Shown here: positions 18,817 through 19,554 of the stretch, in pieces | How the letters are laid out: every line of letters begins with the position of its first letter | Position numbering within the stretch: position 1 is the first letter of the stretch | Source of the DNA: Pirellulales bacterium | GTDB lineage: Bacteria > Planctomycetota > Planctomycetia > Pirellulales > JAEUIK01 | Assembly (NCBI GenBank): GCA_019694435.1 | Contig: JAIBBZ010000006.1 | Coordinates: 124,001-188,000 of the forward strand | Length of the DNA stretch: 64,000 nucleotides | Reading direction: 5' to 3' | Notes under the pieces: model-generated | The model's input: the letters and a program-made list of their open reading frames with translations, nothing else | What the model was told of the DNA's origin: nothing | Databases searched by the model: none | Made by a program: the position numbers and the translations under genes

Positions 18817-18993
18817 ATGGCCATGCACGAACGTCCCCCCCAGACCGAACCGCGCGACGACGAGCGACCCATTCGCTGGGAGCTCGTTGCACGGCTGCGC
18901 CGGGAGATCGCCGAGGGCAACTACGATACGCCCGAGCGATGCGCCGCGGCGATCGATCGCCTGCTCGAACGCTGGCACGCCGACGAGCGCTGA
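18817..18993 (+). CDS. Small FlgM-like (anti-sigma) protein
   Basis: A 58-residue protein with a disordered, charged N-terminus followed by RWELVARLRREIAEGNYDTPERCAAAIDRLLERW. This matches the C-terminal half of FlgM anti-sigma-28 proteins, where the VxxIKxxIAxGxY-x-i-d-xxkIAxxLL pattern forms the sigma-binding helices. No flagellar gene is nearby. Short FlgM-like proteins are scattered in planctomycetes and may have other partners, so the assignment is by pattern only. ATG 18817 was used; ATG 18823 is equally possible. The reading frame ends inside the first copy of a 16-bp direct repeat, and a probable terminator follows at 19135. Confidence 0.55.
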   Translation: MAMHERPPQTEPRDDERPIRWELVARLRREIAEGNYDTPERCAAAIDRLLERWHADER

Positions 18994-19134: not shown

Positions 19135-19165
19135 GGCGCGGGAGACCCGCGGCCTCGATTTTTTT
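19135..19165 (+). terminator. Probable intrinsic terminator after the FlgM-like gene
   Basis: CGCGGG at 19137-19142 and CCCGCG at 19146-19151 form a 6-bp stem with a three-base loop, extendable by two G-C pairs with a one-base bulge. Seven T residues follow at 19159-19165 after a seven-base spacer. The spacer is longer than ideal, so efficiency is uncertain. Confidence 0.5.
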
Positions 19166-19201
19166 CCGTGCATTTTCTCCGCCTGCATTGCAGTCGCGGC
19201 A

Positions 19202-19207
19202 TAGAAT
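19202..19207 (+). promoter_or_regulatory. Possible -10 element of the candidate RNA gene
   Basis: TAGAAT at 19202-19207 matches the -10 consensus at five of six positions and lies 6-10 bases before the structured stretch. No good -35 element at normal spacing is visible, so this is suggestive only. Confidence 0.25.
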
Positions 19208-19213
19208 AAAGAA

Positions 19214-19525
19214 AGCCGGGTTGCAGCTAAGCTCTAGCGAGCGGGCACAACCGCGCGGCTTCAAACGCCGCGCGGTTTGTCCGCAAGCTGGGAGCGAAAA
19301 TTGCCGATGTCTGTTTGCGGCTCGGTTGGTGACAACCGGGCGGATCCCAGCCTCCTGTCTAATTCCGTCGGAGGTGCCAACCCTGAATTCGTGGACCGAG
19401 ATCAACCAACGGCCCGTGCCTAGCACAGCCTGATCTCGCGTACTTCTCGAAGCGACTCCACCGTCGCAATGGCAGGGGGTTTGGATCCAAGGCCGCGGGC
19501 CCAACAGGGTACCGCGGCTTTTTTT
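19214..19525 (+). ncRNA. Candidate structured non-coding RNA or riboswitch-like leader
   Basis: This roughly 310-base stretch contains no plausible gene but strong RNA structure. A long hairpin at 19241-19284 has a perfect nine-pair core (CCGCGCGGC/GCCGCGCGG) around loop TTCAAAC and further pairing outward. A second at 19323-19338 is CGGTTG-GTGA-CAACCG, a six-pair stem capped by a GNRA tetraloop. A third pairs CCTCC (19351) with GGAGG (19370). The stretch ends in an intrinsic terminator at 19492-19525 and is preceded by another terminator. It is either an independent small RNA or the attenuated leader of the PQQ-like gene starting at 19635. It lacks diagnostic motifs of RNase P, tmRNA, SRP RNA and the common riboswitches. 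Both ends are approximate. Confidence 0.4.
19492..19525 (+). terminator. Intrinsic terminator
   Basis: GCCGCGG at 19492-19498 pairs perfectly with CCGCGGC at 19512-19518, directly followed by seven T residues at 19519-19525. This is a textbook Rho-independent terminator on the plus strand. It lies 109 bases before the GTG start of the next gene, so it either ends an upstream RNA or attenuates that gene. Confidence 0.8.
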
Positions 19526-19533
19526 ATTGAACG

Positions 19534-19554
19534 GCGCCGGCATTTTGCCGGCGC
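19534..19554 (+). promoter_or_regulatory. Strong hairpin upstream of the PQQ-like gene
   Basis: GCGCCGGCA at 19534-19542 and TGCCGGCGC at 19546-19554 form a perfect nine-pair stem with a three-base loop. No T tract follows. It lies just downstream of the intrinsic terminator and 66 bases before the ribosome binding site at 19621, and could protect a 5' end or contribute to leader folding. Confidence 0.45.

Follow-up and report, generated by a model that had tools for sequence, protein, structure and literature searches.

A conserved structured RNA of Pirellulales, likely the gene of an undescribed stand-alone RNA family

Features of the locus

The window, a 64,000-nt stretch of a contig from a Pirellulales bacterium, carries an RNA element on its plus strand. 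Upstream lies a FlgM-like ORF of 56 residues (18823-18993, +), a neighbour outside the RNA that scored 17.3 bits, below the Pfam cut-off of 25, and the downstream gene, on the same strand, encodes a PQQ-like protein (PQQ_2). The features named in the original prediction were recovered in the sequence at or near where it had placed them, namely a TAGAAT box at 19202-19207, a GC hairpin at 19241-19284, a six-pair stem with a GTGA loop at 19323-19338 and a terminator at 19492-19525 (GCCGCGGGCCC-AACA-GGGTACCGCGGC followed by T7). The upstream terminator proposed at 19135-19165 is also present but weaker, with 7 bases between its hairpin and the T-run, and a simple terminator scan missed it. Likewise, both CCTCC (19351-19355) and GGAGG (19370-19374) exist, but their mutual pairing is absent from the conserved fold described below, in which CCTCC pairs within stem P1 with 19475-19479 and GGAGG lies opposite the P4 loop, so that the proposed sequestration of an anti-Shine-Dalgarno by a CCTCC/GGAGG pairing is unsupported by this fold.

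Folding of 19205-19527 on the plus strand gave -165.7 kcal/mol, against -121.5 ± 5.0 kcal/mol for 100 shuffled sequences, none of which was as low (z = -8.9), and the same test on the minus strand gave a z of only -3.2. Conservation at the locus covers 19347-19484 and the terminator. Both the GC hairpin and the GTGA stem lie in the 5' part, whose sequence is not conserved, and a long hairpin occupies the same place in some relatives. Window positions 19347-19484 (+), represented by 137 positions in the covariance models R1 and R2, are confirmed as the core of a structured RNA, an observation stronger than first described.

Conservation and distribution

A blastn search with 19160-19540 as the query hit 39 of 57 relatives, most of them once, and the matches centred on 19362-19498, the sequence 5' of the core being variable. 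An exact 25-base pattern hit 21 contigs of the GTDB set (10 of them duplicates of contigs found earlier), every title being that of a planctomycete lineage. Across Pirellulales, the order of the window and the group proposed at the outset for comparison, a covariance-model search recovered the RNA in most genomes: R1 matched 171 of 196, including 143 of the 159 better ones (completeness of 90% or more, contamination of 5% or less), and 90 of 102 genera. A single match was obtained in 167 of the 171 genomes and two in the other 4, and 25 of the 196 genomes, including one single-contig genome (G010), gave none. One genome holds a second, clearly divergent copy (L190, G047:C208; E = 3.0e-19), for which contamination (4%) is possible.

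Across a phylum sample, R1 matched 39 of 392 genomes, comprising 12 Pirellulales, 24 of the 27 genomes of family f21 from the same class, and 3 outside the class whose E values (0.0019-0.0088) are at chance level. One of the f21 matches is that of G373, a genome of 5.5 Mb in 2 contigs, at C1:3488647-3488787. Model R2, built from 100 members, matched 117 of 248 genomes in a class sample (62 Pirellulales and 55 of f21; three further Pirellulales genomes were listed without a match), and none of these 117 class-wide matches fell in families f22, f118, f119 or f120. When applied to the phylum sample, R2 matched 41 of 392 genomes, that is, the same 36 of the class as R1 and 5 weak ones outside it (E 3.7e-5 to 5.4e-4), three of which lack the entire P3 arm. 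One of these five (L202, G094:C318:3267-3413; 26.4 bits) retains both signatures, UUCCGNCG and UCUCGAAGCGGC, and is possibly a distant member of the RNA family. The distribution is most simply read as an origin of the RNA before Pirellulales and the order of f21 diverged, followed by losses.

Fold and covariation

The fold is modelled as a closing stem P1, a long arm P3 and a hairpin P4, plus a probable pseudoknot in which the P4 loop pairs with the GGAGG strand. P1, in which 19349-19357 pairs with 19473-19481, displays covariation. The P3 arm (19389-19450), which covaries, is built of P3a (19389-19391/19448-19450), P3b (19393-19396/19440-19443), P3c (19398-19403/19432-19437) and an apical hairpin (19412-19419/19423-19430). 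The stem of P4 (GCGAC-UCCACC-GUCGC, 19452-19467) is nearly invariant, and its support therefore comes from conservation rather than covariation. Bases kept in at least 95 of 100 members are found in the junction (19366, 19367, 19369, 19445-19447 and 19451), in the pseudoknot strand (19371 and 19374) and in the P4 stem.

RNAalifold analysis of a MAFFT alignment of 41 distinct members yielded 39 pairs, 28 of them with compensatory changes. With a hand-set structure of 37 pairs, 91.2% of the cells were paired, compared with 81.4% in the shuffled control and 37-47% in slid controls; the corresponding values for the final fold, which has 40 pairs including the pseudoknot, were 92.5%, 75.7% and 34.5-46.0%, and both-sided changes occurred in 34 of the 40 pairs. 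Entire helices are exchanged in P3a, where GCG/CGC, GCA/UGC, GGA/UCC, CGA/UCG and UUA/UAA were all found. Moreover, G-U cells (213) outnumber A-C cells (59), indicating the plus strand.

Covariation was evaluated by a test written in the manner of R-scape, with a G statistic and average-product correction, null alignments simulated along a FastTree tree using the observed substitutions, and a threshold of E ≤ 0.05. Applied to the 100 members as aligned by the model, the test found 15 significant pairs among 8911, all 15 of them inside the fold. Because an alignment fitted to the model is biased towards the structure, the test was repeated on a structure-blind MAFFT alignment, in which the top 16 of 9045 pairs all belonged to P1 or P3 (two of them off by one base in window numbering, at an extra base of the window's copy) and 10 reached E ≤ 0.05. 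The covariation in relatives that the original prediction had called for is thus found in both alignments.

Two other pairings were considered. P2 (19365-19366/19373-19374), proposed by RNAalifold and contained in the search models, was dropped from the final fold since the pseudoknot accounts better for its G side; covariation cannot decide on P2 because its letters barely vary. A pairing of a 5' CGGGTTG with CAACCC of the core was rejected, as loci L028 and L029 retain CGGGTTG while CTACTT replaces CAACCC.

A pseudoknot probably forms between the GGAGGU strand (19370-19375) and the P4 loop (19457-19462), judging from joint changes of the two, which occur as GGAGGA/UCCUCC, GGAAG/UUUCC, GAGGGA/UCC(A)CUC and GGUGG/CCACC. 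In 43 distinct strand/loop combinations, the duplexes of own partners had a mean of -5.55 kcal/mol, against -4.89 ± 0.17 kcal/mol for shuffled partners, and 1 of 5000 shuffles was as low, a permutation result weakened by the kinship of the sequences. The pair 19370-19462 ranked 19th of 9045 in the structure-blind scan and was non-significant on its own (E = 11.7). Most members have a central A-A mismatch in the pseudoknot.

Predicted transcription unit

The TAGAAT sequence resembles a -10 box and lies 139 nt upstream of the core; no match to a -35 element was found at the window locus. TANAAT occurs within 120 nt upstream of 53 of 136 distinct cores, against a shuffled mean of 14.5 (maximum 24), and is absent from this interval in the other 83, the window's own box falling outside the distance counted. 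The boxes form two groups, one under 60 nt away from the core (41 hits) and one 90-150 nt upstream (40 hits, the window's included), and in several f21 members (L055-L064) the box stands 8-12 nt 5' of the core. From these two positions, a transcript of about 180 nt is predicted in lineages whose -10 box directly precedes the core, and one of about 310 nt here, where transcription would start about 7 bases after TAGAAT (near 19214) and end at the terminator (19525). The extra length of the longer transcript would be a variable hairpin domain.

This variable 5' part (19214-19346, +) contains, besides the GC hairpin and the GTGA stem-loop, the sequence TGCCGATG at 19302-19309. The upstream flank of 17 of the 136 distinct cores, against 0.4 in shuffles, has CGGGTTGCA, which in the window (19217-19226) follows soon 3' of the distant -10 box and appears to be the conserved start of the longer predicted transcripts. 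TGCCGAT is found upstream of 68 of the 136 cores, with about 3 expected. The window as a whole has 13 TGCCGATR sites (19302-19309 and 12 others) against 5.2 expected, a number reached in none of 100 shuffles, and this sequence may be a promoter or regulatory motif of the group.

At the 3' end, the intrinsic terminator has a stem with a 2-base bulge, owing to which the simple scan missed it. The consensus fold of the relatives retains a hairpin at this site with compensatory changes. A strict terminator test, blind to bulged stems such as the window's own, detected a terminator after 95 of the 136 distinct cores, the shuffled mean being 11.35, and a terminator after the core is well supported by these comparisons. 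At two loci (L079 and L080) a T-run follows almost directly after the 3' strand of P1 and no separate terminator hairpin was seen; P1 itself may end transcription there.

Genomic context

The genes around the RNA differ from locus to locus. In 20 long loci, clusters of neighbouring proteins hold at most 3 loci each. Among the family-labelled loci, examined within 1.5 kb of the RNA (63 of them with at least 1 kb downstream), the protein clusters common to at least 3 families are all upstream genes, and no downstream protein is common to at least 3 families. Two genes recur upstream of the RNA and in its orientation: a 3-keto-disaccharide hydrolase gene (PF06439), seen at 14 loci from 6 families, and a FlgM-like ORF about 150-400 nt away, seen at 16 loci (two of which repeat the same place) from 14 distinct genomes and 5 families. 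These recurring upstream genes seem to reflect a gene order inherited within part of the tree, and a functional tie between them and the RNA is conceivable. Where a FlgM-like or hydrolase gene precedes the RNA on the same strand, the RNA could be cut from a longer mRNA. As the neighbours vary between families, we read the element as a stand-alone RNA rather than a leader of the PQQ-like gene.

Comparison with known RNAs

No match to any of 4227 Rfam families was obtained at gathering scores in the whole window, so the locus itself remained unassigned in the scan with all Rfam models; ten long relative loci gave tRNAs only, and at E ≤ 5 no family recurred on the core in 12 divergent relatives. 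No tRNA or tmRNA was found in the window. The absence of RNase P, tmRNA and SRP RNA signatures noted earlier agrees with the location of these RNAs elsewhere in the genome of the window (RNase P RNA in contig C13, 275.3 bits; tmRNA in C17, 168.5 bits; SRP RNA in C40, 61.2 bits). The sole match to 6S RNA in this genome also lies elsewhere (L191, G000:C3:297489-297712), with 29.2 bits against a cut-off of 46.4, and may be a divergent 6S RNA of this lineage.

In its habits the new RNA is similar to 6S RNA (RF00013), which is single-copy, stand-alone and widely conserved and has a similar length. However, 6S RNA is one long hairpin with a central bubble, whereas a multi-helix junction with a pseudoknot is modelled here, and RF00013 had no match at the locus. 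raiA and OLE, lineage-wide structured RNAs of uncertain function, share with it a strong fold, an own gene, confinement to a lineage and a context silent on function, but they occur in other phyla, gave no match in the Rfam scans and are larger. The best sub-threshold Rfam match near the locus was RT-12 RNA (RF03016; 22.9 bits, E = 0.15), at half of its gathering score of 44.2 and on the variable GC hairpin, off the conserved core.

The only planctomycete entry in Table 1 of the 2010 list of 104 motifs is Rhodopirellula-1, given there as an ambiguous RNA, probably cis-regulatory ('y'), from Proteobacteria and Planctomycetes and without an Rfam number (PMC2864571). It resembles the new RNA in being partly from Planctomycetes, the comparison resting on the Table 1 attributes, and, lacking an Rfam number, it lies beyond the reach of the Rfam scans. 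In contrast to its probably cis-regulatory position, the genes downstream of the new RNA differ. As regards Proteobacteria, the strict 25-base pattern of the new RNA, run over the GTDB set, hit contigs with planctomycete titles. The main texts of three later bacterial surveys (PMC11109978, PMC8632094 and PMC6429828) contained none of the planctomycete terms searched. Our literature search found no paper describing the RNA among those listed, which falls short of proof that it is unpublished. The family is probably new in that it matches nothing it was tested against, a comparison that covered the Rfam models and, for Rhodopirellula-1, the listed attributes. As a general kind, stand-alone structured RNAs are well known, and this one has the covarying fold by which they are judged.

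Discussion

The conservation of this element, its fold and strand, its near single-copy state and its independence from its neighbours all emerge from comparison of genome sequences. The original prediction left two alternatives, an independent RNA or an attenuating leader of the PQQ-like gene. The former is favoured by order-wide conservation extending to f21, covariation, the promoter-like box, the terminator, the lack of an Rfam match and the changing flanks. In our judgement the stretch is quite likely the gene of a stand-alone, trans-acting structured RNA of an undescribed family, most probably part of a ribonucleoprotein.

The second alternative, a cis-acting leader or riboswitch of the PQQ-like gene with termination at 19525, would fit the position of the RNA 5' of that gene on the same strand with a terminator at its end, and a related gene also follows the RNA in one genome of the same family (G002). 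However, such a gene follows in no other fetched locus, whereas a riboswitch or leader is expected upstream of homologous genes in most genomes; with no downstream protein shared by at least 3 families and all such clusters upstream, we consider the leader very unlikely. The near-universal presence in the group, single copy and predicted own transcription unit would also suit a known housekeeping RNA in divergent form (6S, SRP RNA, RNase P RNA or tmRNA), the more so as the genome's own 6S RNA is unconfirmed (29.2 bits against 46.4). This is nevertheless highly improbable, given that the SRP RNA, RNase P RNA, tmRNA and weak 6S candidate are all encoded elsewhere, that the junction with its pseudoknot is unlike 6S and that the core has no recurrent Rfam match. 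Self-cleaving ribozymes or mobile-element RNAs can also show a compact junction with a pseudoknot, as predicted here, and the single match in 167 of 171 genomes, the absence of an Rfam ribozyme match and the lack of a hit of the exact pattern in viral contigs make such an origin exceedingly doubtful. That the conservation stems from the codons of a small protein gene was rejected on reading frames and has almost no probability left: many members do have GGAGG followed by GTG, ATG or TTG, but at most 50 of 136 distinct cores are open in any one frame of either strand, all three phases are represented among the core lengths (51, 47 and 38), and compensatory changes track base pairs.

The RNA could also be a stand-alone regulatory sRNA that targets mRNAs by base-pairing, with the partly unpaired AUUCCGUC or the UUCU stretch as possible contact sites. 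Its own terminator and promoter-like box and the unpaired conserved stretches 19362-19369 and 19444-19447 agree with such a role, which we hold to be possible though rather unlikely, as only 19366, 19367 and 19369 within the former stretch are near-invariant in the 100-member alignment and the best conserved stretches are the structured ones. A ribonucleoprotein scaffold is preferred because the bases that hardly vary are those of the junction, the strand of the pseudoknot and the P4 stem, as in protein-binding folds, and because no long unpaired stretch that could act as a free seed is kept across the whole set.

For this putative ribonucleoprotein RNA we infer transcription between the two predicted ends, action in trans and a protein partner. 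In the proposed mechanism, P1, the P3 arm and the P4 hairpin of the core would fold around one junction, that junction would be locked by the pseudoknot pairing of the GGAGG strand with the P4 loop, and the RNA would act in trans, most likely as the RNA part of a ribonucleoprotein. More tentatively, and with somewhat less than an even chance in our view, it may be a lineage-specific housekeeping ribonucleoprotein RNA, possibly essential, that descends from the ancestor of Pirellulales and the order of f21 and serves a special planctomycete function on a par with 6S or SRP RNA.

With the model and the fold, annotation of the RNA in planctomycete genomes becomes straightforward. Dense transposon data, with about one insertion per 11 bp, exist for Planctopirus limnophila, a related culturable species (PMC10632474), and, if this species carries the RNA, its importance could be looked up in them. 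Kept as a single copy throughout most of an order whose cell biology is unusual, and in a further family, the RNA is likely to matter to these bacteria, which probably rely on a so far unstudied RNA.
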